Below are positions 3,926 through 32,380 of a stretch of 64,000 nucleotides of DNA, piece after piece. Position numbers and translations under genes: made by a program. The stretch's first letter is position 1. Every line of letters starts with the position of its first letter. The stretch comes from Spirochaetota bacterium (GTDB lineage: Bacteria > Spirochaetota > UBA4802 > UBA5368): NCBI GenBank assembly GCA_004297825.1, contig SCSX01000033.1:62001-126000 (forward strand), in the 5' to 3' direction. Below the pieces are notes generated by a model that saw nothing but the letters and a program-made list of their open reading frames with translations, made no database searches and was not told where the DNA came from.

Positions 3926-4449
3926 AGGGAGAGCTCCACGAGTTTCTTATCCACGATCTTACCTTTGAGGGTCCGGTTGTTTTTCACGCGGACCTGGATC
4001 GTATCGCCAACGCGGCCGTCCTGCAACGCGCTCCCGGGGATCTCCAGGGTTATCGTGCGGTTGTATATCACCACGCTTACGCCGTCCCCTGCCTGCACGA
4101 CCATCTCCGGGATCTCGGCACACCGCTCCTCGGGGCGGGGCAGCCGCGCATAGACGCGCACCGCGTTTCCGTAAATGAACACGGACTCTTCGGTTGCGCG
4201 CGCGACCAGGGCCGAGAGCTCGGTGCGGTCGATATACCCGTCCTCGGAAAGCCTCGCGGGCAGGACGAGCGCGCGCAGGGTGTCCGCGAGCTCCCCGGCG
4301 GTTTCGACGCGCGCGACGTCGGCCAGGGTAAGCGCATCCTTCGCCTCCACGCGCGACAGGAGATAGAGGTTTACATCCGCGCCGGCTGCGGCGCCGCGTG
4401 AAAGCCCGACGCACGCGGCGAGCGTCGCGATGATGAGCCCGGCCCTCAT
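3922..4449 (-). CDS. flgA: Flagellar P-ring assembly chaperone FlgA
   Basis: A 175-residue protein with a signal peptide (residues 1 to about 22) and the C-terminal SAF/ChapFlgA domain, recognised by DGVSVVIYNRTITLEIPGSA and RVGDTIQVRVKNNRTLKGKI. Known FlgA is a periplasmic chaperone needed for FlgI to assemble into the P ring. It sits between flgG and flgH, with a 1-nt overlap with flgG and a 4-nt overlap with flgH. The N-terminal half is poorly conserved, as is usual for the family. Confidence 0.88.
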   Translation of the reverse strand: MRAGLIIATLAACVGLSRGAAAGADVNLYLLSRVEAKDALTLADVARVETAGELADTLRALVLPARLSEDGYIDRTELSALVARATEESVFIYGNAVRVYARLPRPEERCAEIPEMVVQAGDGVSVVIYNRTITLEIPGSALQDGRVGDTIQVRVKNNRTLKGKIVDKKLVELSL

Positions 4450-5243
4450 TACCGCTTCAATCCTATGGCCGTCGCGAGCATGTTGTCGGAGGTCTGGATC
4501 GCCTTGGAGTTGATCTCGTAGGCGCGCTGCGCCACGATCATGTTCACCATTTCTTCCACGACCTTTACGTTGGACATTTCCAGGAATCCCTGGTGGGTCT
4601 TCGCCATGCCGTTCACGCCCGGCTGCCCGGCTATCTCTTCGCCGGAGGCCGGGGTGGTCTTGGCGAGGTTTCCGCCGATATTCTGGAGGCCGGCCGGGTT
4701 CACGAACCTGAATATTTCGAGCTGGCCCACCTCCACCGGATCGTCCTCACCCACGAGCTTCACGCTCACCCGGCCGTCCTGGCTTATCGAGAGCGTGTCC
4801 ATGATGAAGTTTTCCGGGAGCACGACGGGCGGCTCGAGCATGTACCCGTTCGAGGTCACCAACTGGCGGTTGGAGTCTATCTTGAAGGAGCCGTCGCGCG
4901 TGAACGCGGGGGTACCGTCATAGAGCAGTATCTTGAAGAAGCCCTCCCCCTCGAGGGCGAGGTCGGTCTTGTTTTCGGTCGACTGGAGGCTCCCCTGGGA
5001 GAACATCTTCTGGGTCGCCGAGGTCTTCACCCCATGCCCCACCTGGATGCCCGTGGGCACCTCCGAGAATTCGGTCGCCGGGGTCCCGGCCATGAGCACG
5101 GTCTGGTAGATGAGATCCTCGAACTCCGACCTCATGCGCTTGTAGCCGAAGGTGTTGACGTTGGACAGGTTGTTGGAAATCGTATCTATATTGAACTGCT
5201 GGCTCACCATGCCCGACGCCGCCGTCCAGAGTGATCGCATCAT
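4449..5243 (-). CDS. flgG: Flagellar distal rod protein FlgG
   Basis: A 264-residue protein with the full FlgG signature. The N-terminal rod motif is SLWTAASGMVSQQFNIDTIS followed by NNLSNVNTFGYKR; the middle has the FlgE/F/G-like domain; the C-terminus has LEMSNVKVVEEMVNMIVAQR, then AYEINSKAIQTSDNMLATA. It forms the distal rod between the basal body and the hook. It is the first gene of the minus-strand operon and is preceded by GAGGTG 8 nt before the ATG. No flgF partner is visible in the window. Confidence 0.95.
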   Translation of the reverse strand: MMRSLWTAASGMVSQQFNIDTISNNLSNVNTFGYKRMRSEFEDLIYQTVLMAGTPATEFSEVPTGIQVGHGVKTSATQKMFSQGSLQSTENKTDLALEGEGFFKILLYDGTPAFTRDGSFKIDSNRQLVTSNGYMLEPPVVLPENFIMDTLSISQDGRVSVKLVGEDDPVEVGQLEIFRFVNPAGLQNIGGNLAKTTPASGEEIAGQPGVNGMAKTHQGFLEMSNVKVVEEMVNMIVAQRAYEINSKAIQTSDNMLATAIGLKR

Positions 5244-5340
5244 AGTCTGTCACCTCACGCTCGTATATAGTCCGGTTATGTCACCGGCATATCCGTCTCT
5301 CATATTCTCGGTCTGCGGGACGGGGTCCAAAATTAAAATA

Positions 5341-5369
5341 TTGACAGGGGGGTAAAAAAGTACTAGCCT
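5341..5369 (+). promoter_or_regulatory. Possible sigma-70 promoter for the MORN lipoprotein
   Basis: TTGACA (5341-5346), a 17-bp spacer and TAGCCT (5364-5369) lie about 125 bp before the ATG at 5496. The -35 box is perfect and the -10 box weak. It sits in the intergenic space shared with the divergent flgG operon. Confidence 0.4.
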
Positions 5370-5495
5370 TCGCTTGCCCAGGGCGCCCGGCCTCCCTGGG
5401 GTGATGGTATTGGCATATTTGAGTATATTCGTACTGGATGCCCGCCGGGCGGTGTCGACCGGGCGTCCGCACACCATTGAAAAGGGGTACTAGTT

Positions 5496-6785
5496 ATGAC
5501 GTGGAAGAAAGCAGTGGCGCTTTGCGCGGTGTGGGCTTTTCTTGCAGCCTGCAGCTCCGGTCAGAAAGGAGGGGGCAGCGTGAAAGACGGTCCTACCAAG
5601 GAGTTCTGGGACGATAAATCGCTTAAGGGCGCCGGAAACGTGAAGGATGGCCAGAAAACCGGTAAATGGACGCTCTATCACATGGCTTCGGGCGGCAAGC
5701 TCAAGCTGGGCGAGGGTGAATATAAGGACGACAAACAGGAAGGCAAGTGGACCTTTTACCATAAAAACGGCCAGGTGAGCACCCTGGGCGAGTTCGAGGA
5801 AGGCCAGAAAAAGGGTAAGTGGCAGGGATTTTACGACAATGGCGACCCCGAATGGGAAGCCACCTATGTCGTCAAAGAGAAGGAAGAATCCGGCTTCAAG
5901 ATGAAAATAGGCGGGATCGAGGGCCTCAAGACCACCTTTTACAAGGGCAAAAAGGTCTGGAAGGAAGAAGAATACAAGGATGGCCTGAAAGACGGTAAAT
6001 CCCAGGAATACTTCGAAAACGGCAAGCTCAAGGAGATCACCCAGTACAAGGAAGACGAGAAGGACGGCGGCTCCATGGAGTGGTTCGATAACGGGGCGAA
6101 GAAGGCCGAGGGCGCGTACGCCAAGAAAGAACGCATGGGCGCATGGCGCTTCTTCCATGACAACGGGCAGCTCGCCGTGGACGGCGCCTTCACCGCGAAC
6201 AAGCAGGACGGTCTCTGGAGATTCAACTCCCGCGACGGCCAGCTCATGAAGGATGGAAGGTACAAGGAAGGGAAGGAAGACGGTCCCTGGTCCTTCTACG
6301 AGGCGACCGGTCAAAAGCAGATGGACCTTTTCGTGGCCGGGGGCATGGTGGTCGAGGGCGTGAACAAGGTGTATGAAAACGGCGCGCTCACGGGAGAGGG
6401 GGGCCTTTCGGGCCTGCCCAAGGCGATATTCCAGACCATCAAGAACGGGACGCCCGGCGCCGAAATCGAGGCCGGGGACGCGCTCCCGGACGACCCAAGG
6501 GCGGGACTCAGCTACCGCTGGACCGGCAAGTGGAAGATGCTCAAGAAGAACGGAAAGTGGTCGGATTACTATCCCGGCGGCTTCGCGAAAAAGACCGAGG
6601 CCGTCTACATGATGGACAAGCTCAATGGCAAGTACAAGGAGTACTACCAGACCGGCCAGGTCAAGGCCGAGGGCGAGTACTTGAACGCGAAGAAAAACGG
6701 GAAGTGGACGTTCTACAACCAGGACGGCTCGGTCGACAAGGACCAGTCCGGGAGCTACATGATGGACAAGAAGGCGAAGTTCTAG
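5496..6785 (+). CDS. MORN-type repeat lipoprotein
   Basis: A 429-residue lipoprotein: signal peptide with lipobox LAAC (acceptor Cys at residue 19), then a long series of MORN_2-like repeats of about 23 residues, each with a G-x-W-x-(F/W)-Y core such as GKWTLYHMASGGK, GKWTFYHKNGQ, GAWRFFHDNGQ, GPWSFYEATGQ and GKWTFYNQDGS. Such repeats form extended beta sheets and are common in YwqK-like and cell-surface proteins. It likely hangs in the periplasm or on the outer membrane. AAGGGG lies before the ATG and a strong terminator follows, so it is a single-gene unit. The binding partner is unknown. Confidence 0.85.
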   Translation: MTWKKAVALCAVWAFLAACSSGQKGGGSVKDGPTKEFWDDKSLKGAGNVKDGQKTGKWTLYHMASGGKLKLGEGEYKDDKQEGKWTFYHKNGQVSTLGEFEEGQKKGKWQGFYDNGDPEWEATYVVKEKEESGFKMKIGGIEGLKTTFYKGKKVWKEEEYKDGLKDGKSQEYFENGKLKEITQYKEDEKDGGSMEWFDNGAKKAEGAYAKKERMGAWRFFHDNGQLAVDGAFTANKQDGLWRFNSRDGQLMKDGRYKEGKEDGPWSFYEATGQKQMDLFVAGGMVVEGVNKVYENGALTGEGGLSGLPKAIFQTIKNGTPGAEIEAGDALPDDPRAGLSYRWTGKWKMLKKNGKWSDYYPGGFAKKTEAVYMMDKLNGKYKEYYQTGQVKAEGEYLNAKKNGKWTFYNQDGSVDKDQSGSYMMDKKAKF

Positions 6786-6809
6786 CGCCGGTTCGCATTG
6801 AATGCACGA

Positions 6810-6838
6810 GACCCCGCCGCGAGGCGGGGTCTTTTTTA
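6810..6838 (+). terminator. Rho-independent terminator
   Basis: GACCCCGCC-GCGA-GGCGGGGTC forms a perfect 9-bp GC-rich stem with a GNRA loop and is followed by TTTTTTA. It lies 24 nt after the MORN lipoprotein stop. The T-run is only on the plus strand, so it serves that gene and not the opposing chemoreceptor. Confidence 0.93.
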
Positions 6839-6858
6839 TTCAGCCGGACGGGCGCGAT

Positions 6859-8439
6859 TTACGCCTCCACCGCCTGTTCGGATTCCCGGAGAAGTTCTTC
6901 CGCGTGCGCGGCGATCACCGTGGCGGCCCCGGTTATCTCGTTGATCCCGTCCACCATGGCCATGAGCGTTTCATTGATGTGCTCGACGGCCCGGGAGGTC
7001 GATTCGAGGGCGACCTTCTGCTCCTCGGTGCCGGCGCCGGTCTGCCGGGCGAGCTCGCCGTTGCGCGTCATGCGGCGGGAGACGTCGGCGAGAAATTCCT
7101 CCTCGGTCTGCATGTGCTCCTTGAGGAGGGCTATCTTGCGCGAGCTGTCCAGCATGTTGTCGATCATGCTCTTGATGGTGCCGGACGCCACGTTGATGAC
7201 CTGGACGCCGTCCTCCGTGGTCTTCGTGTTCAGGCGCAGCACCGTTTCGATCTCCTTGATGCTGTCCGAGGTCTGCTCCGCGAGCTTCCCGATCTCGTCG
7301 GCGACGACCGCGAAGCCGCGGCCGTGCTCGCCCGCGCGCGCCGCTTCGATCGAGGCGTTGAGCGAAAGCAGGTTGATCCTGTCCGCGATGTCGACTATGA
7401 TTGAAAGCGTCTCGGCGATCCTGGTCCCCTGCGTCCTGATCTCAAGCATCGTGTTTTCGACGACGCCGATCTTGTCCTTCCCCGTCTCGGAGTGCGCGAC
7501 GACCGCATTGATATCGCCCAGCAAGCCTTCCAGCCGCGCCCTCGTTTCGCCCTTGAGCTTCTTGAAGCTCTCGATGGTTGCGCTCATTCCGTCGCTTTCC
7601 ACGAGCTGGCTGCGGGCAGTGCCCGCGATATTTTCCGACGATCCGCGCAGTTCCTCGACGGTGGCGGATATCTCCTCGAAGGTCGAGGCCTGGCTCTGGA
7701 TGCGTTCGCTGAAATCGGCGGTGACCTGCCTCTGGGCGTGCACCCTGTCGAAGAGCCCGTTCATCTTGGCCTGGATTCCCTTCACCAGGTCGCGCTGGTT
7801 CTTCGACTGTTTCTCGATGATCGCCCTCTGCGCCCCGGTGCGGGACTCGTAGTCCTCGATCACGGGAATGCTCTTGTAGGATATATACGTTATGATCGCC
7901 ATCATGACCAGGAAGTACGCCTCGCGCAGGAGCATGACCCCATGGTAGACCTGGCCGTCCTTATACGTCTGGAGGTAAAACTCGACCCCCTTGCCGTGCG
8001 CCACGTAGAGAAACAGCAGCCAGTTCGCGAAGGAAATCACGGACATCGTGATGAATATCTTCCTGTCGTAAAAAAACTGGAGGACCACCAGGCAGAATAC
8101 CACCATCGCCGAAACCTGGTAGCACTCGACGGCATAGGTCCAGTCGATATTGACCGCGTAACTGTATTTCGCCGCGTTGGGCATCAGGGCGAGGATGAAT
8201 CCCGCGGTCCAGCGGAGTGCGCCGGTGGAAAGCCTGCGCTTCTTCCGGAAAAAAATGACGAACCCGATAATGACGATCAGCAGGTTCATGACGAACGCGG
8301 TCAGGATCGTTGCCGGTTTTACGCTCGCCAATAACTGGAAGACCGCGGATATGACCGTACTGAATATAAAAAGATAGACGAAGATGAGGCTACCCCTGAT
8401 TTCAAGGACCTCCCGGGCAGTATAGCTTTTTCTTTCCAT
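6859..8439 (-). CDS. Methyl-accepting chemotaxis protein with polytopic N-terminus
   Basis: A 526-residue chemoreceptor. Residues 15 to about 195 contain roughly six hydrophobic helices and no large periplasmic sensor domain, and no HAMP is evident. A cytoplasmic MCP signalling domain follows, with the hairpin tip [19 protein letters not shown] at about 373-391 (Gly replaces the usual Arg in EIRKLAEQ). It should control CheA through CheW and the flagellar motor; an integral-membrane sensor suggests a membrane-dissolved or electron-transport-related signal (inference). There is no C-terminal pentapeptide for CheR binding. GGGGTG precedes the ATG and a good promoter lies upstream. Confidence 0.9.
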
Positions 8440-8515
8440 TGCACCCCGCTGGTGTCTTTATTTCGCCGCGGCGCGTTTCCCGCGGCGCGATGCGGTTGAG
8501 CGATCCCTTGCCAGT

Positions 8516-8544
8516 GTTTTACCATAATGGGCGAATCCTGTCAA
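8516..8544 (-). promoter_or_regulatory. Sigma-70-type promoter of the chemoreceptor
   Basis: Read on the minus strand: TTGACA (8544-8539), a 17-bp spacer, then TAAAAC (8521-8516), about 77 bp upstream of the chemoreceptor ATG. The -35 box is perfect and four of six -10 bases match. The rest of the 297-bp space up to adk holds a short GC hairpin in the leader (about 8464-8487) and nothing coding. Confidence 0.55.
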
Positions 8545-8736
8545 ATTTATAAACGGCGGAGGACCACCCGCGCGCGGACAAAAATATTGTTTTACAAAAA
8601 ACACGCGCTGCCTCACTGCTGTCCCCTGTTCGCATTCACCGCCCGCCATGCGCCATGTTCCGTCCGGTGCGTCCTCAAGGCGCGGGGGGCCGATACACCT
8701 ACATCCCGACATGGATGACAATCCGGAGGCAGCGCA

Positions 8737-9357
8737 TTGAAGATAGTACTCATGGGACCGCCCGCGTGCGGCAAGGGAACACAGGCGAGGATGCTTACTG
8801 AAAAGTTCGGCCTCGCGCACATTTCATCGGGGGACATCCTCCGCGGCGAGGTCGCGCGCGGCACCGAGTTCGGCCTTCAGATAAAGCAGTTCATGGACCG
8901 GGGCGAGATCGGTCCGGCCGCGCTCATCACCGACGCGGTGATCGCGCATATCGGCGCGCACTGTCCCGACGGATTCGTCCTGGACGGCTTTCCCCGTACC
9001 GTGTACCAGGCCTGGGAGCTCATGAAGGAGCACGAGATCGACGCCGCGTTCCTCATCGACGTGAGCGCGGAGGAGGTCATGCGCCGCATCACCGGGAGGC
9101 GCGTGTGTTCAGGGTGCGGGCGCATTTTCAACATTCACCGCGGCGCGCCCGCGTCCGGGAAATGCGAATCGTGCGGCGGCGCGCTCGCGCGGCGCGACGA
9201 CGACAACGAGGAGACCGCCCGCAACCGCCTCGATGTCTACACGCGCGAGACCCTTCCGGTCGCGGACTTCTACACGTCGGGGGGCACCCTCCGGAAAATT
9301 CCGGGCGAGCGCGGCCCCGAAGAAATTTTTGCGGAAATTCTTGCGCTTATCGGTTGA
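8737..9357 (+). CDS. adk: Adenylate kinase, zinc-lid type
   Basis: A 206-residue enzyme that interconverts ATP + AMP and 2 ADP in the cytosol. The P-loop GPPACGKGTQ is at residues 7-16, the AMP-binding DGFPRT at about 83-88, and the lid carries two CxxC pairs (Cys124, 127, 143, 146) that should bind zinc, as in Gram-positive and many other Adk. The start is TTG: it is the only start that leaves the first beta strand intact, and CGGAGGC sits 8 nt upstream, whereas the ATG at residue 6 would cut into the P-loop strand. It is somewhat shorter than the usual 210-220 residues. Confidence 0.93.
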   Translation: MKIVLMGPPACGKGTQARMLTEKFGLAHISSGDILRGEVARGTEFGLQIKQFMDRGEIGPAALITDAVIAHIGAHCPDGFVLDGFPRTVYQAWELMKEHEIDAAFLIDVSAEEVMRRITGRRVCSGCGRIFNIHRGAPASGKCESCGGALARRDDDNEETARNRLDVYTRETLPVADFYTSGGTLRKIPGERGPEEIFAEILALIG

Positions 9358-9388
9358 CGCCCCCCCGGCCAGGGCGTATCATCCAGGT

Positions 9389-9673
9389 ATGAAGCGCATC
9401 CAACGGTTTATCGCCGTATCGGCAATCGCCGCTTTTATAGTCTTGTTCGGGGCGGTGCCGCCGCATCACCATGAAAACACGCAATCCCAGCGGGATTGCC
9501 CCGTCTGTGCGCTCGCCTCGGCATCCGGGAGCGGCATGGACGCGAAGGCGGACCATGCATGCGCACCCGCGTTCGAACGCTCGGGGAACGTCCGCATCGA
9601 CCACACGCCGATACTTTCCAACTTCTTCCGCTCTCTTACCACGCTGCCCAACGCGCCCCCGATAGAAATCTGA
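9389..9673 (+). CDS. Small exported His/Cys protein (DUF2946-like)
   Basis: A 94-residue protein with an N-terminal membrane or signal segment (about residues 8-24) followed by PPHHHE and CPVC, the pattern seen in DUF2946-type small proteins encoded beside metal transporters. More His and one more Cys follow (DHACAP). These residues could bind zinc or copper in the periplasm. It lies 30 nt after adk and just upstream of the outer-membrane barrel and zinc-type transporter genes, which supports a metal role. Family assignment is by pattern only; function is inference. Confidence 0.6.
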   Translation: MKRIQRFIAVSAIAAFIVLFGAVPPHHHENTQSQRDCPVCALASASGSGMDAKADHACAPAFERSGNVRIDHTPILSNFFRSLTTLPNAPPIEI

Positions 9674-9806
9674 TCATCCACCGGCAAGACCCTGCGCGGA
9701 CGCGGAAGCTTTGGCACGCCCGCGCGGCGTCCCGTTGCGCCCGTTGTTCGACATCGCGCCACGGGGCCTGTTCTGGACAGGAAAATGGAATTCTATCGGA
9801 GGAATC

Positions 9807-11096
9807 ATGATTAATCGCATCCTCGCATTTACGGCCGCGTTGTGCATTCTTCTGGAGGCGGGAATCGCCGGCGCACAGGAACCGATCGTAAAGGAACGCG
9901 CCACGGGCTCTCCCTTCGCCCAGGGGAAATACGTCCCCGATATATCGTTCATCGTCGACTTCTCGACCGTGGCGCGCACCATGAGCGACGAGCGCTACGC
10001 CTCGCTCGAAATACCGGGATTTACCCATGTAGTGCCTGGTGAAGGCCTTTCGCATGAGGCCATGAACGCGACGAACGGCTTTAACCTCAACTACGGCGAG
10101 CTCACCCTCGCGTCCGCCGTGGACCCCTACTTCGATCTCTTCGCCGCGTTCCACCTTACGGAGGAAAGCTTCGAGATGGAGGAGGTGTACTTCACGACGC
10201 GCGCGCTGCCGTTCGGCTTCTCCTTCCGCGGGGGCAAATTCAGGAGCGGCTTCGGCCGCCTGAACGAGCAGCACCCGCACGTGTGGGACTTCGCGGACGC
10301 GCCGCTGGTCACGCGCGCCTTTTTCGGCGACGAGGGCCTGGTCGAGGTCGGGGCCCGGCTCTCGTGGATCGCGCCCCTCCCCTTTTATGTATCGCTGAAC
10401 GCGGAAATCCTCCGCGGCGCGAATGAGGCGAGCTTCGGCACGGAGGGATTCCGGGATTTCCCGGGGACCCATGCGATAGGCGACAGCCCGCCCCCCAATC
10501 TCAAGGTGGGATACGCGCGCTCCTCGTTCGATATCGGGGCGCTGTCGGTGCTGTACGGCGTCTCGTACGCAATGGGGGAATCGCGCATCAACGCGGGCGT
10601 GGACGCGGACCCGGCGGAAAATCCCGACGGCTATGCGCTGCGCGCCGATACCGGAATACTGGGCGCCGATATCACGCTCAAGTTTCTCATCAATTCGTAT
10701 CGGTTCCTCTCGCTGCAGGCGGAGTACCTCAACCGCACCATGAAGGGCGACCGGTTCGACAACGCGGGCGGAAGGGAGCGCATTGAAAAGAAACAGTCGG
10801 GCATGTACGCGCAGTCGGTGTTCCGATTCGCGCAGCGCTGGCGCACCGGGTACCGGTTCGATCTCCTGGATACCAATAAGGAAAAGATCGGCGGCGTTTC
10901 GTCGAAACTGCCGGAAAACCTTATGCGCCATACTGCGATGATCGAATTCGTCCCCACCGAGTTTTCCCGGATCCGGCTCCAGGGCTCCCATGACCGGAGC
11001 GGCTACCTGGACGGGGCCGCGAAGCGGACGACGAACGATGAGGTCTTCCTCGCCTTCACCATGGCGATAGGCGCGCACGGCGCGCATTCATATTAA
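9807..11096 (+). CDS. Outer-membrane beta-barrel, zinc-regulated receptor type
   Basis: A 429-residue protein with a signal peptide (cleaved about residue 23, GAQ-EP) and a mature part of alternating amphipathic strands. GKFRSGFGRLNEQHPHVWDF at about 150-170 resembles proteins annotated as zinc-regulated outer-membrane receptors, which lack a TonB plug. It ends in a Gly/His-rich stretch (GAHGAHSY). GGAGGA precedes the ATG at 9807; an upstream in-frame start would add a non-signal-like Arg-rich leader. Its place ahead of ZnuA- and ZnuB-like genes suggests that it passes zinc or manganese across the outer membrane. Metal identity is not provable from sequence. Confidence 0.72.
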   Translation: MINRILAFTAALCILLEAGIAGAQEPIVKERATGSPFAQGKYVPDISFIVDFSTVARTMSDERYASLEIPGFTHVVPGEGLSHEAMNATNGFNLNYGELTLASAVDPYFDLFAAFHLTEESFEMEEVYFTTRALPFGFSFRGGKFRSGFGRLNEQHPHVWDFADAPLVTRAFFGDEGLVEVGARLSWIAPLPFYVSLNAEILRGANEASFGTEGFRDFPGTHAIGDSPPPNLKVGYARSSFDIGALSVLYGVSYAMGESRINAGVDADPAENPDGYALRADTGILGADITLKFLINSYRFLSLQAEYLNRTMKGDRFDNAGGRERIEKKQSGMYAQSVFRFAQRWRTGYRFDLLDTNKEKIGGVSSKLPENLMRHTAMIEFVPTEFSRIRLQGSHDRSGYLDGAAKRTTNDEVFLAFTMAIGAHGAHSY

Positions 11097-11111
11097 AACC
11101 GGAGGAAAGCC

Positions 11112-12014
11112 ATGAAAAGGCTTATTATACGAATCGCGATTTTCGCAGCCGCTATGTGTATCGGCGCCCCCGCCTTCGCGGGAAAAACGAGCGTCGTCAC
11201 GACGTACCCGTGGATCGCGAGCATCACCGAATACATAGGAAAGGACCGGGTGTCGGTATTCCCGCTCGCGCGCGCCGATTACGACCCGCACACGATAATA
11301 CCCAAGCCCTCCTACATCGCGAAGCTCCGCGGCGCCGATCTCCTCATCATGAACGGCGCGCAGCTCGAGATCGGCTGGCTCCCGCCGCTCATCCGCCAGG
11401 CGAACAACCCCGTGGTCTTCCCAGGCGAGCGCGGATTCCTGGATCTTTCCGCGACCGTCACGCTTCTGGACCCGCGCGACAGCGTCTCCCGCGCCGAGGG
11501 AGACATCCACCCGGAGGGGAACCCGCACTTCGCCCTGGACCCGTACAACATACCCGTGATCGCGAAGGCAATCGCCGCGCGGCTCGCCGAGCTTGACGGG
11601 GACAACGCCGCGTATTACGAGGCGAACCTCGCCGAATTCGCGGCCGCGTGGAGCGCGCGCCTGGCCGGCTGGGACGCGAGGCTCTCGAAGCTCAAGGGCG
11701 TGAAGGTGATCGAGTATCATCGCCTGTTCGACTACCTGCTGAACCGCTACGGCGTCGTCGTCGTCGCGACTATAGAACCGCTCCCGGGTATCCCCCCCGC
11801 GTCGCGGCACATCGCGATGCTCGAAGCGCGCCTGGCCGCGGACGGGGTGTGGGGAATTTTGCAGGACGTCTATCATCCGGACGACGCGTCCGCGCTCCTC
11901 TCGGCGAAATTCGGGTTGCGTCTCATCGTGCTCCCGCACGACGCGGGCGCGGTCGACGGCACCGGCGACATCTTCGCCCTGTTCGAAGAAATCACGAGGA
12001 GGCTCGCGCAATGA
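11112..12014 (+). CDS. ZnuA/TroA-family metal-binding protein
   Basis: A 300-residue cluster A-1 solute-binding protein: signal peptide (to about residue 23, AFA-GK), then the family core VVTTYPW. Likely metal ligands are His60 (DPHT), His139 (NPHF), His203 (EYHRLF) and an Asp near 277-282 (PHDAGAVD). It captures Zn(II) or Mn(II) in the periplasm for the membrane permease. The acidic/His-rich loop typical of many ZnuA proteins is nearly absent. GGAGG precedes the ATG and the stop overlaps the permease start by 4 nt. Confidence 0.88.
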   Translation: MKRLIIRIAIFAAAMCIGAPAFAGKTSVVTTYPWIASITEYIGKDRVSVFPLARADYDPHTIIPKPSYIAKLRGADLLIMNGAQLEIGWLPPLIRQANNPVVFPGERGFLDLSATVTLLDPRDSVSRAEGDIHPEGNPHFALDPYNIPVIAKAIAARLAELDGDNAAYYEANLAEFAAAWSARLAGWDARLSKLKGVKVIEYHRLFDYLLNRYGVVVVATIEPLPGIPPASRHIAMLEARLAADGVWGILQDVYHPDDASALLSAKFGLRLIVLPHDAGAVDGTGDIFALFEEITRRLAQ

Positions 12015-12745
12015 TCGACATACTGCTCACCGCATTCCTTCTTTCCGTGGTGCTCGTGGGAATACATTCCTTTTACGGGCTGGAAATCATAAAGCGGGGA
12101 ATCATCTTCACCGATCTCGCCATAGGCCAGGCGGCGGCGCTGGGCGCCGCGGCCTCCCTGTTTTTCCTGGACGGGGCGTACCTCTATCCCGTGTCGCTGT
12201 TCTTCGCCCTTTCGGCGGGTCTCGCCATCGCCCTGGGATCGCGAAGGTCCCAACACCTGGAGGCGTTCATAGGCCTCATGTATGCGTTCTCGCTCTCGGC
12301 GGTATACATCCTGCTCTCGCGGTCCCCGCACGGCATGGAGGAGTTTCAGCGCCTCATGGCCTCGGATATACTCTTCACCCCCCTGCGCGAGGTGCTCGTC
12401 ACCGCGCTCATCTACTCCGGAATAGGGCTCTTCCTGTTTCTCTTCTACCGTAAGGCCCGGGGGTTCGCCCGGGACGCCATCTTCTTCGTCACGTTCGCGG
12501 TGACGGTGACGAGCTCGGTGCGCCTCGCGGGCGTGCTCATCGTGTTCGCGCTCCTGGTCTCCCCGGCCCTCATCGCCGGCATGACGAAGAAGGGAAACGC
12601 GCTCGTCAGGGCGTGGACAATAGGGACGGCGGTGAACATCGCGGCAATCGCCGCCTCCTACGAATTCGATCTTCCCACGGGGTATACGCTCGTGTGCGCA
12701 CACGCCTTCCTCGCGCTGTGCGTCTCGCTCATCGTGAAGCGATAG
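12011..12745 (+). CDS. ZnuB-family metal ABC permease
   Basis: A 244-residue ABC-3 family permease with about seven hydrophobic segments and the hallmark SSVRLAGVLIVFALLVSPAL in the C-terminal half, with the early segment FTDLAIGQAAALGAA. It starts at ATG 12011, coupled to the binding-protein stop; a longer upstream open frame is shadow sequence. It is shorter than most ZnuB (about 265-275). No ATP-binding gene follows or precedes it in this window, so the ATPase must come from elsewhere or the pair is orphaned. Confidence 0.87.
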   Translation: MIDILLTAFLLSVVLVGIHSFYGLEIIKRGIIFTDLAIGQAAALGAAASLFFLDGAYLYPVSLFFALSAGLAIALGSRRSQHLEAFIGLMYAFSLSAVYILLSRSPHGMEEFQRLMASDILFTPLREVLVTALIYSGIGLFLFLFYRKARGFARDAIFFVTFAVTVTSSVRLAGVLIVFALLVSPALIAGMTKKGNALVRAWTIGTAVNIAAIAASYEFDLPTGYTLVCAHAFLALCVSLIVKR

Positions 12746-13142
12746 GGGGTCCCATTCTTACACGCCTCTGGCGAAAAAAACTTCGCCCCCGCGTGCGTTA
12801 GTACTTGCCAATTCCCCGCATATCCTGATATTCTCCCCAAATACGCCGGGACTGGTTTTCCGGCGTTGTCTGTGGTACTATAAACATGGAGGATGCCGAT
12901 GCGGGAGGCCCAGCGATAAGAACATATCATTCAATAATCGCCGCAGAATCGCCTTCCGAAAAGTCCCGGCGTCCGGGTTCCCGGACGACAGATGACGGCA
13001 GCACGCGCGGCCTTCTTCCGCGCATATCCCCCATAGCCGATACACCATTCAACAGTTCCAGGCACGCACAAGGGCGAAGCGCCCGCGTATCACCCCTGCA
13101 TACGATCGCGCGCGTTTCGCATACCGCAAATATAATGAAAAA
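12746..13142. other. Intergenic with small hairpins
   Basis: A stretch of nearly 400 bp with no convincing gene. GGCGAA-N6-TTCGCC occurs at about 12769-12786 just after the permease gene, without a T-run, and ACGCCGG-N10-CCGGCGT at 12843-12866. A 93-codon plus-strand frame (12886-13167) lacks a ribosome-binding site and a sensible composition and runs through a regulatory-looking hairpin, so it is not called. Confidence 0.5.
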
Positions 13143-24606: not shown

Positions 24607-26265
24607 TCAAAGCTCGGGAAACGCGTGACTGAACGGGTGTATGTTCTTGACCATTGTGGTGCCCGCTTCGGTGCCGTCGCTCGCCCAGAGCTCGTAACCA
24701 TGTGAGCCGTCCCACGCGATGAAGAAGAGCCTGCCGTTCATGGCGAACAGCTGGGAGACCATACTGCTGCCGCCAGAATTTATGTCCTTGACCATCCTGG
24801 TGCCTGCTTCCGTGCCGTCGCTCATCCAGAGCTCGCAGCCATGGGTGAGGTCGTCCACGCCGAAAAACAGCTTGCCGTTCATGACGGTGAAATAGGCCGG
24901 GGAATTGCCCGGCCAACTGTCGCCCGAACCGGGGGCTATGTCCTTGACCATTGTGGTGCCGGCCTCCGTGCCGTCGCTCACCCAGAGCTCGTGTCCATAT
25001 GTGCCACCGTCGTATGCGCAAAAAAATATCTTCCCGTTCATCGGGATGATATTTTTGACCCCGCTGCTGACCGAACCGGGGACGATATCTTCGACCATCT
25101 TGGTGCCGGCTGCGGTCCCGTCGCTTACCCACAGCTCTTGACCATAATCGTCCTTGGCGCTGAAAAAAATCTTACCGTTCATCACCTTGAGCCACAACGG
25201 ATTTCCGTTAGGATTTCCGTAGCCCACATATATGTCGTGGAAAAGCACGGTGCCTTCTTCGGTGCCGTCGCTCACCCAGAGCTCATAACCGTGGCCGGGG
25301 CTCATGGATCCGTCATACGCGGAAAAGTAGAGCTTGCCGCCCATGGCGGTAAAATAATCCGGATATGAGCTCATGCTCCCCTCCGGCTCTATGTTCTTGA
25401 GCATCCTGGTGCCTGCTGACGTGCCGTCGCTCACCCAGAGCTCCCTGCCGTTGGTGCCGTCGTCCGCGGCGAAAAACAGCCGGCCGTTCATGGCGGTCAT
25501 CTCACCGGGGTCGTTGCCTTCGTTTGTGTAGTCCCCGACCCACACGTCGCCGAGCGGCACCGTGCCGGAGTCCGTCCCGTCGCTTTTGTAGAGCACGTTG
25601 TTGTGCGTGCCGTCCGTTGCGAAAAAGTACAGGCTGTCGCCCATGACGATCAGGCGCCGGGGATTGCCGTCCCCCGTCGCGTTCAGGTCCTTGACCATCG
25701 TGGTGCCCGCCTCCGTGCCGTCGCTCACCCAGAGCTCATAACCGTTCGTGCCGTCGTTGGCCCGGAAATAAGCCTTTCCCTTCATGGCGACGGGGCTGAC
25801 GATCTCGCCCCGATCGTTGGATATAGCTTTAAGAAGAGTGGTGCCCGCCTCCGTACCGTCGCTCACCCAGAGTTTCACGCCGTCGCCGTCGTCCGCGAAC
25901 ATGAGCGCCTTGAATGATATCGTCACCGTGTACGCCTGTGTCGATCCGCCGGCCGTGGTCACGGTATAGGTCACGGGATTGGTGAAGTCCTGCGCCGCCC
26001 CAGACGCCGGGCTTACGCTCGCCCCGTCATGGGCGACGGCGGGCGCAAGCGCCGTTACGTCCGTCCCGCGCATCAGGGTTATCGCTATTTTATGATTCGT
26101 TTCATCTATAGTCCCCGTTGCGGGCGGGTCCGTTACATTGAACGCGGTAATCGCCGCTTCCGTGTTCGAACCAGGTCCGTTGTCTCCTCCGCCGCCTCCG
26201 CAGGCGGTGAAGACCAGTGCCGATACGATCACCATTTTTGCCGCACGCATAAATCTGTTCTTCAT
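24607..26265 (-). CDS. ELWxxDGT-repeat surface lipoprotein
   Basis: A 552-residue lipoprotein: signal peptide with lipobox FTAC followed by a Gly run (CGGGGG), a DUF5018-like beta-sandwich (about residues 36-115, ITAFNVTDPPATG to TQAYTVTISF), then nine ELWxxDGT repeats at about 48-residue spacing (ELWVSDGTEAGT, ELWMSDGTEAGT, ELWASDGTEAGT and variants; one degenerate LYKSDGTDSGT). Such repeats are thought to build an extracellular beta-propeller or solenoid. AGGAGG precedes the ATG at 26265. The start region and the upstream 71-bp repeat resemble those of the lipoprotein gene ending at 27369. Confidence 0.85.
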   Translation of the reverse strand: MKNRFMRAAKMVIVSALVFTACGGGGGDNGPGSNTEAAITAFNVTDPPATGTIDETNHKIAITLMRGTDVTALAPAVAHDGASVSPASGAAQDFTNPVTYTVTTAGGSTQAYTVTISFKALMFADDGDGVKLWVSDGTEAGTTLLKAISNDRGEIVSPVAMKGKAYFRANDGTNGYELWVSDGTEAGTTMVKDLNATGDGNPRRLIVMGDSLYFFATDGTHNNVLYKSDGTDSGTVPLGDVWVGDYTNEGNDPGEMTAMNGRLFFAADDGTNGRELWVSDGTSAGTRMLKNIEPEGSMSSYPDYFTAMGGKLYFSAYDGSMSPGHGYELWVSDGTEEGTVLFHDIYVGYGNPNGNPLWLKVMNGKIFFSAKDDYGQELWVSDGTAAGTKMVEDIVPGSVSSGVKNIIPMNGKIFFCAYDGGTYGHELWVSDGTEAGTTMVKDIAPGSGDSWPGNSPAYFTVMNGKLFFGVDDLTHGCELWMSDGTEAGTRMVKDINSGGSSMVSQLFAMNGRLFFIAWDGSHGYELWASDGTEAGTTMVKNIHPFSHAFPEL

Positions 26266-26428: not shown

Positions 26429-26499
26429 GTTCATTCCTGTCTCGCACTCTGCTGTCCGAACAGAATAATTCCATGTCCGGTCAGGCGGGGATGTGGGCA
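26429..26499. repeat. 71-bp repeat, copy 1
   Basis: This 71-bp stretch matches 29052-29122 at 70 of 71 positions, and weaker similarity extends to both sides. It lies 164 bp upstream of the ELWxxDGT lipoprotein start (minus strand), as copy 2 lies 168 bp upstream of the second DUF1566 lipoprotein. It contains CTG-TCCGAA-CAG, a near-palindrome. Confidence 0.9.
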
Positions 26500-26536
26500 A
26501 ATACGCCGGATTGTGCAGTAAAGGCGCGGGAGCTTT

Positions 26537-27253
26537 TCAGTTGCCGGTAACCGGACCGCGGACAGGCCAGACTAATGAATAGCATTCTTGTGCTTTGTTC
26601 ATTGGTGTTATTCTGCCGCTTATTGTAATATTAGCAAAGCCTACATTCCACGCTGCAGCTTTTGTTCCGGAATAAAAATTAATGGTAGCCTCCGGACTGC
26701 ACCAGTAGTACTTACTGCATGATACATTATCAAAACCCTGTGCATTCAACGAACCGCATTGTTCGCTGTAGTTGATCAGTGTTTCGAGTTCGTTCACAGT
26801 AGGCATACGCCAGTCGGTATACCGGGGTGTTTTCGTTACTCCGCAAGGATATGTGCCGCTGTTCAGGCCTGCGATAAAAGTCTTCGATTTTTCCCAAGTA
26901 ACAGCGCCGTCTCCGGCATAACTTGGACCGCAAACATTATAATACGGATCAGGATCAGTAATACTATCGAATGACTTGTGTGTATCTATGGTTCCCATTG
27001 CATTTGCGTTCTTAACCCACATGAGTCCTGTCATATTATCTGTTACAGTGCCGTCGCCGTTGTCGCAGAAACGTATTGACGGCAAATCCGTGCCTTTCTT
27101 GTACGACCCGTCGTCGCCTGCGCTGTATTCAGTTGCCTGTCCTGTTACCGGCAGATTGCTGCCTGAGCCTGTTGCGAGCACTATCACAGTGATTGCAAGC
27201 ACTGCGGCCAGGGCTGCTGATATGCTAATAATTTTTATTTTTGATTTCTTCAT
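26537..27253 (-). CDS. DUF1566/Lcl-domain exported protein
   Basis: A 238-residue protein with an N-terminal signal or membrane segment (IISISAALAAVLAITVIVLA) followed by a Lcl C-terminal (DUF1566) domain: RFCDNGDGTVTDNMTGLMWV, WEKSKTFIAGLNSG, YTDWRMPTVNELETLINYSE and a closing WPVRGPV. Such domains occur in lectin- or collagen-like surface proteins. Cys residues are paired, fitting an extracytoplasmic site. GGAG precedes the ATG at 27253. It has lower GC than its neighbours and sits between two lipoprotein genes transcribed the same way. Confidence 0.8.
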   Translation of the reverse strand: MKKSKIKIISISAALAAVLAITVIVLATGSGSNLPVTGQATEYSAGDDGSYKKGTDLPSIRFCDNGDGTVTDNMTGLMWVKNANAMGTIDTHKSFDSITDPDPYYNVCGPSYAGDGAVTWEKSKTFIAGLNSGTYPCGVTKTPRYTDWRMPTVNELETLINYSEQCGSLNAQGFDNVSCSKYYWCSPEATINFYSGTKAAAWNVGFANITISGRITPMNKAQECYSLVWPVRGPVTGN

Positions 27254-27368
27254 GATTACTCCATGTTGTATATATTCTGTTTTAACCGTGCCGCTTTTCA
27301 CCCATTCATGTGACTGTTCATTTAAAGAGAACTTGCCTTATTGTTGATAAAACCAATATATAGCGCAT

Positions 27369-28883
27369 TTACGGAGCTGAGCGCACTGGCCATACATAAT
27401 TAAGGGTACTGTTCGGATCTACCTTCTTTCCTATATATATACTGCTTTGATAAAAATTAGTTATCATTGTATGACCTGTATTAGTTGGATCTGTTGTACT
27501 GGTGAAGTACCAGTCATCACGCAGAGTCGCCGCATTTGTATAGACAGCTGTTATCGATGAAAAATCCTGGATGTATAACAACAGGGTGCGCATCTCTCTT
27601 ACATTCGGCATACGCCAGTCTGTGTATGCCGTTGTTGCTCCACAATTATAAGTACCGTCATTTATTTTACCGATAAACTCCAGAGCTTTTGCCCATGTGA
27701 CCTTGCCGTCCCCCCAGCCGGTATCGGGTTGATGGTCAAAGTCCGGATAAAGCGTTTTTATAGCATTGGCATTCTTAATCCACATCAGCCCTGTCATCTT
27801 GTCCATCACAGTGCCGTCGCCATTATCTGTAAACCTTGGCGAAGGCCAGCTTATTCCTGCGTCTGTGCTTGTCTGCCCGGTCTTGAAAACCGGTATGGCC
27901 CTGTACACTTCTATTGTGTAGGTCTCTGTTATGATGTCACCCGGAACTGTAATAGTTATAACAGCATTGTTTTTGCCTACTTTAAGATTATTCATTTCGT
28001 ACTCGTCGCCGGATGGAACAACTGTTCCGTTGATAGTCATAACCGCATTTGCGTCAGCAACAGTTGCTTTGATGCCTGCTGACTGGAGGTCATCGTATGC
28101 AGGATTAGTATTGTCGCTGAACGGCACAGGCGCGTCGAGGTAGTCTGTGACGCTTGCATCGAAGACCGGCTGGAGCCTTCCCTTCGAAACGACTATTGAA
28201 GCGAGTTTTACGTTGGATAATTTCTTCACTGTCAGAATAAAGGTCTTCGTGTCGTGGGCGCTCCCTCTGGTAATTGTGGCAGTCAATATTACTTCCGCGT
28301 CGCTGCTTTCGAACGACGGACGGGTAACAGTACCATTATTCGCGACCACGGCCGTATTGTTCGACAGCCAGCCGATTGTCGTGCCGCTTGCTCCCGTTCC
28401 CGGCACAGTGATGTTCCGGATTACGCTCGAAGCGGAATCATTGCCCGCGTATGTAATTGAAAGATTAGCCTTGTCTTCCGCGACGCATTCAGCCTCCGTT
28501 GCGGGCGCTTTTATTACTGTCAGGGTAAAGACCTTGGTGTCGCGGGCGTTCCCTTTCGCAATTGTGGCGGTCACAATAACCTCCTCGTCGCCGTTTGTGT
28601 ACGACGGACGGGTAACAGTACCATTATTCGCAATCACCGCCGTAGTGTCCGACAGCCAGCTGATAGTCGTGCCGCTTGCACCTGTGAGAGCAAATGCAAT
28701 GTGCTGTGTAACGCTCGCAGCGGAATCACCGCCCGCGTATGTAATTGCCAGGTCAGCTTTATCTTCCGCGACACATTCAGCGTCCGAACCCCCGCTGCTG
28801 CCGTCTCCGCTCCCGCCGCACGCGGTGAACGCCAGTGCCGCCGCGATCATCGTGATTGCCAGACGCCTGAACCGGTTTCTCAT
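27369..28883 (-). CDS. Ig-like, cadherin-like and DUF1566 lipoprotein
   Basis: A 504-residue lipoprotein: lipobox FTAC with Cys at residue 22 and a Gly/Ser tether; two tandem repeats (about 36-128 and 132-224) of an atrophied bacterial Ig-like domain, each starting with ECVAEDKA and containing TISWLSDTTAVIANNGTVTR or a close variant; a cadherin-like beta-sandwich (about 228-325); and a DUF1566/Lcl domain (about 340-504, FTDNGDGTVMDKMTGLMWIK, WRMPNVREMRTLL, WPVRSAP). The repeats are a tandem duplication, visible at both protein and DNA level. It is a probable surface adhesin-like protein. The second copy of the 71-bp repeat lies upstream. Confidence 0.85.
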   Translation of the reverse strand: MRNRFRRLAITMIAAALAFTACGGSGDGSSGGSDAECVAEDKADLAITYAGGDSAASVTQHIAFALTGASGTTISWLSDTTAVIANNGTVTRPSYTNGDEEVIVTATIAKGNARDTKVFTLTVIKAPATEAECVAEDKANLSITYAGNDSASSVIRNITVPGTGASGTTIGWLSNNTAVVANNGTVTRPSFESSDAEVILTATITRGSAHDTKTFILTVKKLSNVKLASIVVSKGRLQPVFDASVTDYLDAPVPFSDNTNPAYDDLQSAGIKATVADANAVMTINGTVVPSGDEYEMNNLKVGKNNAVITITVPGDIITETYTIEVYRAIPVFKTGQTSTDAGISWPSPRFTDNGDGTVMDKMTGLMWIKNANAIKTLYPDFDHQPDTGWGDGKVTWAKALEFIGKINDGTYNCGATTAYTDWRMPNVREMRTLLLYIQDFSSITAVYTNAATLRDDWYFTSTTDPTNTGHTMITNFYQSSIYIGKKVDPNSTLNYVWPVRSAP

Positions 28884-29172
28884 TGTGATCTCCTTTGTAC
28901 TATTTCCAGCCGCACGCGAAGCAACGCACCCTGCCGCGGCCCCGCCCTTGACGCGGGACGTAATGGCTTCCCGCGTCCATCTCCCGCGTATTTCATGGCC
29001 GCCTGCCCGCGGCTAAAACCCGGCCCGAATGGGCTGAGAATAATGAATCCGGTTCATTCCTGTCTCGCACTCTGCTGTCCGAACAGAATAATTCCATATC
29101 CGGTCAGGCGGGGATGTGGGCATTTGCGTTTGATTGTACAGTGAAAATGGGGAAAAAGGCAGGGGGGCCGAT
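28884..29172. other. Upstream region of the DUF1566 lipoprotein
   Basis: This 289-bp non-coding stretch lies between the lipoprotein start and the end of the sensor kinase gene, both on the minus strand. It contains copy 2 of the 71-bp repeat (29052-29122) and an AACCCGGCCC motif just before it, which copy 1 also has. No gene is seen. Confidence 0.5.
29052..29122. repeat. 71-bp repeat, copy 2
   Basis: Matches 26429-26499 at 70 of 71 positions in the same orientation. Both copies precede minus-strand lipoprotein genes at nearly the same distance, which points to a shared regulatory or leader cassette rather than random repeat DNA. The copies are about 2.6 kb apart and could also support recombination. 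Confidence 0.9.
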
Positions 29173-32112
29173 TTACTTACGGGCCGGGCGCGATCGCCTC
29201 CATTCGGACGGCGTCATCCCGGCCAGCTTCAGGAAGGTCTTATTGAAGGTGCGCAGGTTTTCAAACCCGACGTTGAAGGCGATGCGGGTGATCGTGTCGT
29301 GCGTCTCCTCGAGCATTTGTTTCGCCTTCTCGACGCGCAGGCCGTTGATATACTCGTCGATTCGCTTCCCCGTGATCTGGTTGAAAGCGCGCGACAGGTG
29401 ATCCGCCGATATACCCACGGCGGCGGCCATGCCCTCTCGCGACAGGTCCGCGGTGAAGTTCGATCGGATGAATTCCTCGACTTGCGCGACCTTGTCCTCG
29501 GTCGAGGAGCTTATCGGGCTCGCCCCCCCGGTTTTTTCCTCCAGGCGTTTATAAAGGTCCGCGGTCGTTCTTATGAGCCGGTCCCGGAGCGACTTGAGCT
29601 CCAGCTGTGCCTTGATCCGCGCCAGGAACTCGCTCGAGTTGAAAGGCTTGACGATGTAATCGGTGGCGCCCTTCTCAAAGCCCTCGATCTTCATCGCGAT
29701 ATCGGCCCGCGCGGTTAAAAGGATGACGGGAATTCCCTCGTAGCCTTTCTCCTCACGGATGCGTTTCGTGAATTCGTAACCGTCCATTTCCGGCATCATG
29801 ATATCGGACACGATGATATCGGGGGGATCATCCAGGGATTTCAACAGGGCCAGTGCCGTTTTCCCGTTTTCCGCGGTGAGGAACCTGTACTTGTGCGAAA
29901 CGATATCCGACAGGAAGGTCAGCATCTCTTCATTGTCATCAACAAGGAGCACGCAGGGTATGGTTTCATCCGCCAGTGAAACCCGCTGATTGTGTGAGGG
30001 ATCGGTTCCGGAACCCGGATCGCTCCTGAAATGAATTATATCCTTACAGGAACCGGATTCGGTTCCGGAATTTCGCTCTTCTTCATCGCCCGGTGCGTCC
30101 GCCATGTCCGTGCCGTCCGCGGCGGCTTCCGATCCGATGGGAATCGTGAGGTAAAAGGTGGAGCCCTTACCGGGCTCGCTTTCCACGCTGACATCCCCGC
30201 CATGGAGGCGAGCGATCTCCCGGGTCAGTGAAAGCCCGATACCCGTGCCCTCGTATCTCCTGCTGGAAGAAGAATCGACCTGGGAAAAACGCTCGAATAT
30301 AAGCGCGTGCTGGTCGGCGGGAATGCCGATGCCCGTGTCGTTGAACTCGACAGTGAAGGAATCATCATGCGCAGCGAGCTTCACCGTGATCCTTCCGCCC
30401 TGGGGCGTGAATTTCATCGCATTGCCCAGGAGATTGTACACGGCCTTCTCGAAAAGCCCGCGGTCCACGAAGGCGGTAAGACCGTTCGTAGTATCTATAA
30501 AGGAAATCGTCTGCCCCCTGGCTGTCGCCCCTGAATGCAGGTTCGCCACGGACAACTCCAACTGCCTCGCGATATCGGTTCTCACCGGATGCAGCGCCAT
30601 CCTTCCGGATTCCATCTTCGAGAAATCAAGCAGGTTGTTTATCAGGCTCAGCAGGCGCCCGGCGTTATTGTATAATTTATGCAGAAACGATTCATCGACT
30701 TTTCCCGGGGTATGGTTCCGTAATACCGACTCTACCGGCGATATGATGAGCGTCAGCGGCGTGCGCAGCTCGTGGGATATGTTGGCGAAAAAGTCCGTCT
30801 TGAGCCGGTCGAGCTCCTGGAGCTTCGAGTAGGCCTGCTGGAGCTCGCCCGTTCTCCGCTCGACCTTCTTCTCCAGATTGGCGTTCAGGTCGGCAAGCTC
30901 GTTTTTCATCGTATTGATCCTGTCGGCAAGGCCAAACGAGAACAGCGCCAGCATTCCGACAGAACCCAATTTGAAACTGAAATCGTTAATAAAAAATGAA
31001 GGCAGAAGGCCAATAATGAACGTAACCGGGAACAATCCGCCAAGCACGGGAAGGAAAACCGCAATCAGGTAAAATATGGCGGACCGCGATCCCCTCTTTA
31101 CATACAGGATAGGGACCGCGATGTTGTAGAGGCATACGATCAGGATAAACACGTTCAAGATCACTGTGTGATATTCAGGCTGCGAAACAGGCTCAAGAAT
31201 GACAGATTCCACGATCATAATGGAACCGAATGCGACGAGCGCGTTTATCTGCGTGTCGATAAAAGGCGTTTTTTCTTTCGTCTGAAGATAAGCTTTTAAA
31301 AAAAGCAGACCCGGTATCAATCCGATATAAAAAAACAATGAATGCGACCTTCTCAGAATAACGGATAGATTATCCCACACATAGTTAAAACCAGTTCCGT
31401 CAAGGGTCATGTGGATAGAACTCAGGCCGACTATTAAAAGCAGGTAATAGAAGTACGATTTTTCGCGGACCGAAACGAATATAAACAGATTATAAAGGAA
31501 CATGATGGCGAGAATTCCATAAAACATTCCCTGAAGCACGTCCACGGTCATCAGCTTCGTCATCAGATTTTTCGGAGACCACATTCGAGGAACAAGCGAA
31601 GTCCACGCCGAGTGGTATTGCCGCAAAAAATATACAGTTTCGCCGGGCGGGGTCCGGACCGGGAAGATGAACGTAACGCTGTTTACCTCCCGCTCGCGCG
31701 CGGGTGTATCGACGTAGGCGATAGATTTGAAACGACCGTTTTCACCGGGGTAGTAGAATATCAATTCATCCGCAAAGACGAAATCATTTTCAAGATACCA
31801 TTCCAGTTCTCCACCCGAGTCGTTGCGTACCCGGATTTTAAGCCATATGGACCGGTCTCCGGAGTTGACAATCTTGATGCTTTCGCTCTTTGTGAATTTT
31901 GGTGAAACCCGGTCACTCGATATTTCGTCAATGGCGAGGCGGTGAGTGGTATCGACATAGTACTCCACCTCCTTCCCGATATGCCTGCCGTCGAGATTTT
32001 CCGGTAATACTACCGTTGAATTCAAGGCATAGCTGCGTGGAGGGGAAACGGAAAGAATGGTCAAGATAATGATGATTAACGCCGGTATGGTGTTGTTAGG
32101 AAGCCTGGACAT
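29173..32112 (-). CDS. Hybrid sensor kinase with AraC output (7TMR-DISM)
   Basis: A roughly 979-residue one-protein two-component system. In order: signal peptide and periplasmic 7TMR-DISM extracellular domain (to about residue 170), seven-helix 7TMR-DISM region (about 170-365), HisKA with H-box FFANISHELRTPLTLI, HATPase with NAMKFTPQGG and GTGIGL, a receiver domain with VLLVDDNEEM and VSDIMMPEMDGYE, and a C-terminal AraC HTH (ADHLSRAFNQITG, then ITRIAFNVGFENLRTFNKTF). It senses an outside ligand and controls genes directly. The start is ambiguous: ATG 32112 gives a clean signal peptide but has a weak ribosome-binding site; ATG 32196 is possible. Targets may include the SDR cluster or the lipoprotein genes (inference). 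Confidence 0.9.
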   Translation of the reverse strand: MSRLPNNTIPALIIIILTILSVSPPRSYALNSTVVLPENLDGRHIGKEVEYYVDTTHRLAIDEISSDRVSPKFTKSESIKIVNSGDRSIWLKIRVRNDSGGELEWYLENDFVFADELIFYYPGENGRFKSIAYVDTPAREREVNSVTFIFPVRTPPGETVYFLRQYHSAWTSLVPRMWSPKNLMTKLMTVDVLQGMFYGILAIMFLYNLFIFVSVREKSYFYYLLLIVGLSSIHMTLDGTGFNYVWDNLSVILRRSHSLFFYIGLIPGLLFLKAYLQTKEKTPFIDTQINALVAFGSIMIVESVILEPVSQPEYHTVILNVFILIVCLYNIAVPILYVKRGSRSAIFYLIAVFLPVLGGLFPVTFIIGLLPSFFINDFSFKLGSVGMLALFSFGLADRINTMKNELADLNANLEKKVERRTGELQQAYSKLQELDRLKTDFFANISHELRTPLTLIISPVESVLRNHTPGKVDESFLHKLYNNAGRLLSLINNLLDFSKMESGRMALHPVRTDIARQLELSVANLHSGATARGQTISFIDTTNGLTAFVDRGLFEKAVYNLLGNAMKFTPQGGRITVKLAAHDDSFTVEFNDTGIGIPADQHALIFERFSQVDSSSSRRYEGTGIGLSLTREIARLHGGDVSVESEPGKGSTFYLTIPIGSEAAADGTDMADAPGDEEERNSGTESGSCKDIIHFRSDPGSGTDPSHNQRVSLADETIPCVLLVDDNEEMLTFLSDIVSHKYRFLTAENGKTALALLKSLDDPPDIIVSDIMMPEMDGYEFTKRIREEKGYEGIPVILLTARADIAMKIEGFEKGATDYIVKPFNSSEFLARIKAQLELKSLRDRLIRTTADLYKRLEEKTGGASPISSSTEDKVAQVEEFIRSNFTADLSREGMAAAVGISADHLSRAFNQITGKRIDEYINGLRVEKAKQMLEETHDTITRIAFNVGFENLRTFNKTFLKLAGMTPSEWRRSRPARK

Positions 32113-32380
32113 TTTTTGGTTCGGTGCAAGGAAATATCCATCTCCTTTGCACACCGGTCTAGTGGCAGCCCCCAAAGCAAAAAAGTCAAGGAACATTCAC
32201 GCGTCACCCGAAATCCCGCATTTGCGCGAAGACAATGAATCCTTCTCCCGTGGTCCATATTCTTCGTGATTTCAGTTGACAATACCGTCTTCGGCGGTAT
32301 GCATAGAGGTGTTCGATATTCTGGATGGACTAAGTCCCGGTTGAAACACATAGATAATCAAAGATGATTCGGAGGTCTCA

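Follow-up and report, generated by a model that had tools for sequence, protein, structure and literature searches.

A dyad motif repeated upstream of unrelated lipoprotein genes in a spirochaete is probably the operator of an adjoining hybrid two-component regulator

The window analyzed here is a stretch of 64,000 nucleotides from an uncultured member of the Spirochaetota (contig SCSX01000033.1). The locus under study lies on its minus strand and carries a hybrid two-component regulator (HTCS) gene, genes for lipoprotein and Lcl_C (DUF1566) proteins, and two copies of a 71-bp block, as follows.

29173..32196, minus strand: hybrid two-component regulator (HTCS) with 7TMR-DISM sensor, HisKA, HATPase, receiver and AraC HTH; Pfam scores clear the cut-offs by a wide margin
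29052..29122, minus strand: copy A of the 71-bp block, predicted operator core (model R2) at ~29059-29099; the ATG at 28883 is 168 bp downstream of its end
27369..28883, minus strand: lipoprotein with two aBig_2, a cadherin-like and an Lcl_C (DUF1566) domain, the first predicted target gene; signal peptide ends AALAFTAC
26537..27301, minus strand: second Lcl_C (DUF1566) protein; its N terminus has a hydrophobic segment, and its gene sits between both putative operators
26429..26499, minus strand: copy B of the 71-bp block, predicted operator core at ~26437-26477; the ATG at 26265 is ~164 bp downstream of its end
24607..26265, minus strand: ELWxxDGT-repeat lipoprotein with a DUF5018-like N-terminal part, the second predicted target gene; signal peptide ends SALVFTAC

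The HTCS is a protein of 1007 residues in which Pfam found sensor, HisKA, HATPase, receiver and AraC HTH together, and its stop codon lies about 51 bp upstream of copy A. Copy B starts 38 bp past the stop of the second Lcl_C gene, and AGGAGG precedes the ATG of the ELWxxDGT lipoprotein gene. Within the Lcl_C lipoprotein gene, an internal tandem duplication of 288 bp (window 28221-28786, about 81% identical) encodes both aBig_2 domains.

An earlier note on this DNA had described near-identical blocks upstream of two different lipoprotein genes, in the same orientation and at the spacings listed above, with the encoded proteins alike only in their signal peptides. Sequence comparison confirmed each of these points: copies A and B, 2.6 kb apart and both on the minus strand, are identical at 70 of 71 positions with one difference, both spacings are correct, every copy faces its gene alike, and the part common to the ELWxxDGT and aBig_2/Lcl_C proteins is a 21-residue stretch of the signal peptide. 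Beyond the 71 bp, the identity of A and B drops sharply, to about two thirds across the next ~30-40 bp and to background level after that; by sequence, they look like a recent short local copy or conversion. When the whole window was searched with a 36-bp core pattern, copies A and B were the only matches, and 0 were expected in shuffles.

The core of the block is a dyad motif of ~38 bp and fixed length, ATGGACATTTTCTG-N6-CAGCGGATTnCGAGACA, which is ungapped, nearly constant in length, and has its dyad centre inside N6. Pairing was found in 74% of symmetric cells, compared with at most 51% when the motif was slid, and the self-complementarity score was 0.325 (dyad centre 20.5), compared with -0.06 for a 21-bp direct repeat (shift-21 self-similarity). 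Conserved letters (ATGG and GAGACA) reach past the dyad at constant spacing. This constancy of length and the dyad symmetry suit a site for protein binding. The distance from the motif to the start codon is mostly 55-230 bp, the C23 copy described below being the farthest at about 370 bp. A sigma-70 promoter scan at the motif copies gave matches no more numerous than in shuffles and no clear promoter.

A search of the genome (a 4.89-Mb draft assembly in 96 contigs, 95% complete) brought the number of motif copies to four, A, B, C4 and C23. The lipoprotein genes that they precede all differ, the encoded proteins being of the ELWxxDGT, aBig_2/Lcl_C, CBM96 and DUF5018 kinds. The C4 copy precedes the CBM96 lipoprotein gene, with tatA-like and murA-like genes (identified by eye) in divergent orientation, and the C23 copy precedes the small DUF5018 lipoprotein gene. 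Three further copies are present in a genome of the same genus (G001), before one transglutaminase-domain lipoprotein and two CsgG-like secreted proteins. A sequence-only model built from the copies in these two genomes detected further sites in G011, G023, G040 and G042, all of the same spirochaete order, and a second model recovered these and added weaker sites within that order. By inspection, the sites in these four genomes have in common ATGGACATTTTCTG-N6-CAG-N8-GAGACA with almost constant spacing. Elsewhere in the phylum, nothing convincing was found outside the order among 296 genomes scanned, the single G208 match (E 0.0014) being near chance, and in a strict pattern scan of GTDB contigs only the same-genus genome matched. 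Two matches were set aside as chance, one (L012) falling within an HflX-like GTPase gene and the other (L014) within a coding region.

The genes downstream of the motif across genomes are mostly differing lipoproteins or secreted proteins. Some copies precede non-secreted genes without an AraC gene near, namely a STAS-like gene in G040 and G042 and a gene for a four-helix protein in G011. The small STAS-like gene (L083, G042 C20; L084, G040 C25) lies beside a response-regulator/kinase cluster. Two contigs of G011 (L080, C25; L081, C22) carry lipoprotein genes (of FG-GAP, DUF5018-like and other kinds) in long consecutive runs; several of these genes have a motif copy ahead of them, four-helix-bundle (S23-like) genes lie in between, and a hybrid regulator is present on C22. 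Between one motif copy on that contig and the next gene (L072, G011 C22:1-7000, about 2150-2480), a cobalamin-riboswitch-like leader was recognized by eye. Taken together, the four copies and the motifs in related genomes exclude the possibility that A and B are the only two copies, left by one local duplication, and the comparison gives good support to a common expression control before different surface proteins, as the earlier note had proposed.

The motif repeatedly lies behind genes of AraC-type regulators. The distance from the stop of the regulator gene to the motif is ~51 bp in the window, 82 bp in G001 C353, 150-190 bp in G001 C191, 91 bp in G023 C11, 90 bp in G040 C33 and 28 bp in G007 C232, a range of 28-190 bp; in G042 C255, an AraC fragment ends 96 bp before the motif. 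These regulators are usually hybrid two-component proteins with 7TMR-DISM sensor, histidine kinase, receiver and AraC HTH: Pfam found the full domain set also in relatives from G001, G023 and G040, and the kinase, receiver and HTH parts in the G011 C22 and G001 C191 regulators. The three nearest AraC-domain relatives of the window HTCS (58, 57 and 54% identity) are each encoded directly before a motif copy. The motif also stands just before an AraC regulator gene in G011 C93, and several motifs lie along the lipoprotein gene cluster downstream of the hybrid regulator in G011 C22. A regulator gene adjoining predicted target genes with a common putative operator recurs in several genomes. Across 46 genomes, 7 of 25 distinct motif matches have an AraC domain within 600 bp, where 0.03 would be expected (P about 3e-15), and so do 3 of the 11 matches outside model building (0.013 expected, P about 3e-7); both figures are rough, because they assume random positions and independent genomes. 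No recognizable motif copy lies near many of the related AraC regulators in the order, whose operators may have diverged.

A relaxed pattern applied to the whole of the source genome hit five places, the four known copies and one on contig C47. The latter lies about 50 bp behind an AraC gene, and a second AraC gene follows there, with a similar dyad and three GH3 genes. As judged from these features, the C47 locus is an independent, diverged instance of the regulator-plus-lipoprotein arrangement, at a paralogous locus. In that region (L116, G000 C47:84000-97000, 4217-12999), the two AraC genes are in tandem, with a dyad of the CTGA-N4-TCA(G) type after each, and the three consecutive genes after the pair encode GH3 N-terminal domains with lipoprotein-like starts.

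We consider it probable that the block is the HTCS operator of a surface-lipoprotein regulon, bound by the adjacent HTCS. The block would carry this operator together with an adjoining promoter region. The HTCS (29173-32196) would sense a signal at the cell surface and phosphorylate itself on the receiver domain, and the AraC domain would bind the ~38-bp dyad at A and B and at the distant sites on C4 and C23, so that unrelated surface lipoprotein genes would be jointly controlled, probably by activation. The operator copies would have spread by duplication of operator-bearing DNA ahead of new lipoprotein genes. We infer the binding of the HTCS to the motif, the activation and the signal, and likewise the order of the duplications. 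Several observations speak against this reading: the dyad form in place of the direct repeat predicted for Bacteroides HTCSs, the copies that stand away from AraC genes and ahead of non-secreted genes, the many related AraC regulators with no motif nearby, and the absence of a clear sigma-70 promoter at the copies.

The foremost alternative, to which we give a minor share of the probability, is that the motif is the operator of another dimeric transcription factor that binds inverted repeats and has both the HTCS locus and the lipoprotein genes in its regulon. The clear dyad symmetry, the absence of a 21-bp direct repeat and the position of some copies far from any AraC gene all fit such a factor. 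However, the motif recurs right behind AraC-type regulators, including at weak matches that the model had not seen, and this genome has a diverged copy that follows another AraC gene; at the loci listed, recurrence beside the motif was noticed for no further family of regulators.

Control by the HTCS is also preferred to a structured 5' leader RNA, a riboswitch or hairpin in place of a DNA operator, which appears improbable. The dyad could form a short hairpin, and its covariation was above that of shuffles, but Rfam covariance models matched nothing in the whole window or in the element, single-strand folding of the four copies gave energies no better than those of shuffled sequence, and RNAalifold on the four copies found two-sided changes absent. 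In addition, ATGG and GAGACA are conserved outside the dyad at constant spacing, as in protein-binding DNA. A leader peptide was also considered: one frame (..SVRxAECET..) reads through A, B, C4 and C23. This candidate was rejected by inspection, because a stop breaks the frame in G001 C191 and the relatives change residues freely.

The earlier note had further suggested a portable expression cassette that could underlie antigenic or phase variation. A switchable cassette, with surface proteins exchanged or silenced through recombination among the copies, would fit the near-identical blocks ahead of different surface proteins, the clear duplication of operator-bearing DNA and the presence of an IS91-type transposase gene close to copy C23. 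Against it, the only invertible repeat found at the locus was one weak 32-nt pair (75%) spanning 5 kb, and no homologous silent antigen copies were seen among the repeats around the locus; among the ORFs listed, no site-specific invertase came to notice. Moreover, the proteins are unrelated beyond the signal peptide, all copies are oriented alike to their genes, and conservation of the motif in different genera reaches well past what recent recombination would account for. We therefore find antigenic or phase variation unsupported and regard such switching as very unlikely; ordinary co-regulation explains the repeated motif, since it is linked to an AraC-type regulator. As for portability, the cassette is borne out in an evolutionary sense, a 531-bp block common to C4 and C23 now standing before a different lipoprotein gene, and not as a switching device. 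Least likely of all, and scarcely credible, is a simple local duplication or repeat element devoid of regulatory function. This would fit the 2.6-kb separation, 70/71 identity and abrupt edges of A and B, but not a motif that several genera have kept, that falls between genes in the strong cases, and that stands upstream of surface-protein genes and beside AraC regulators.

The block shared by C4 and C23 is 87% identical overall, including a 51-base gap, and near-identical in the aligned parts. It spans from the 5' part of the tatA-like gene through the putative operator to just before the start of the CBM96 lipoprotein. In the C23 version, which is near a contig end of the draft assembly, tatA is represented by a fragment, and the lipoprotein that comes next is a different one. 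The IS91-type transposase gene is about 500 bp away from the putative C23 operator, a position that hints at, without proving, a role as the vehicle of this duplication. The transposase (Y2) of this region (L076, G000 C23:18000-26832, 6247-8833), which sits beside the 531-bp segment and the DUF5018 lipoprotein, has an odd C-terminal tail. Two of the copies in G001 have a further stretch in common, a second block of 26 bp some 55 bp farther downstream. The C4/C23 block, the A/B pair and this second block together indicate that the putative operator segment was copied more than once before new genes. C4 and C23 represent a well-preserved case of promoter copying, in which a new lipoprotein gene was placed under an existing putative control site.

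More tentatively, these regulators may constitute a spirochaete-specific branch of AraC-type HTCSs that binds an inverted-repeat operator and recruits unrelated lipoproteins by copying the operator-bearing promoter, thereby rewiring the repertoire; we hold this broader proposal to be possible, though somewhat doubtful. The findings tie a hybrid sensor-regulator to a putative operator and to otherwise unexplained ELWxxDGT, DUF1566/Lcl_C, CBM96 and DUF5018 lipoproteins in an uncultured spirochaete lineage, and the motif is searchable, so that further regulon members can be predicted.

Phase-variable surface-protein promoters and expression-site cassettes are exemplified by the invertible promoters of Bacteroides and by vls/vmp of Borrelia. 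The present locus resembles them in having similar upstream DNA before different surface proteins; unlike in those systems, neither invertible repeats nor silent cassettes nor homologous antigens were found around it, and the motif is stable across genera. The likeness to Bacteroides HTCS systems (PMC3878776; PMC11253607) extends to the sensor kinase, receiver and AraC DNA-binding domain in one polypeptide, to a regulator gene adjoining targets for secreted or surface proteins, and to regulons with an operator common to several promoters and additional targets at distant loci. In contrast to the Bacteroides proteins, the spirochaete protein has a 7TMR-DISM sensor, and its predicted targets are assorted lipoproteins, with no SusC/SusD pairs recognized among the genes examined. 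The motifs of 16 Bacteroides HTCSs were predicted to be direct repeats with ~21-bp spacing (PMC3878776), whereas the predicted spirochaete operator is a dyad, and its form therefore departs from precedent. Because the ~21-bp direct repeat is lacking, we do not file the regulon as Bacteroides-type; the regulator protein itself has the HTCS architecture.
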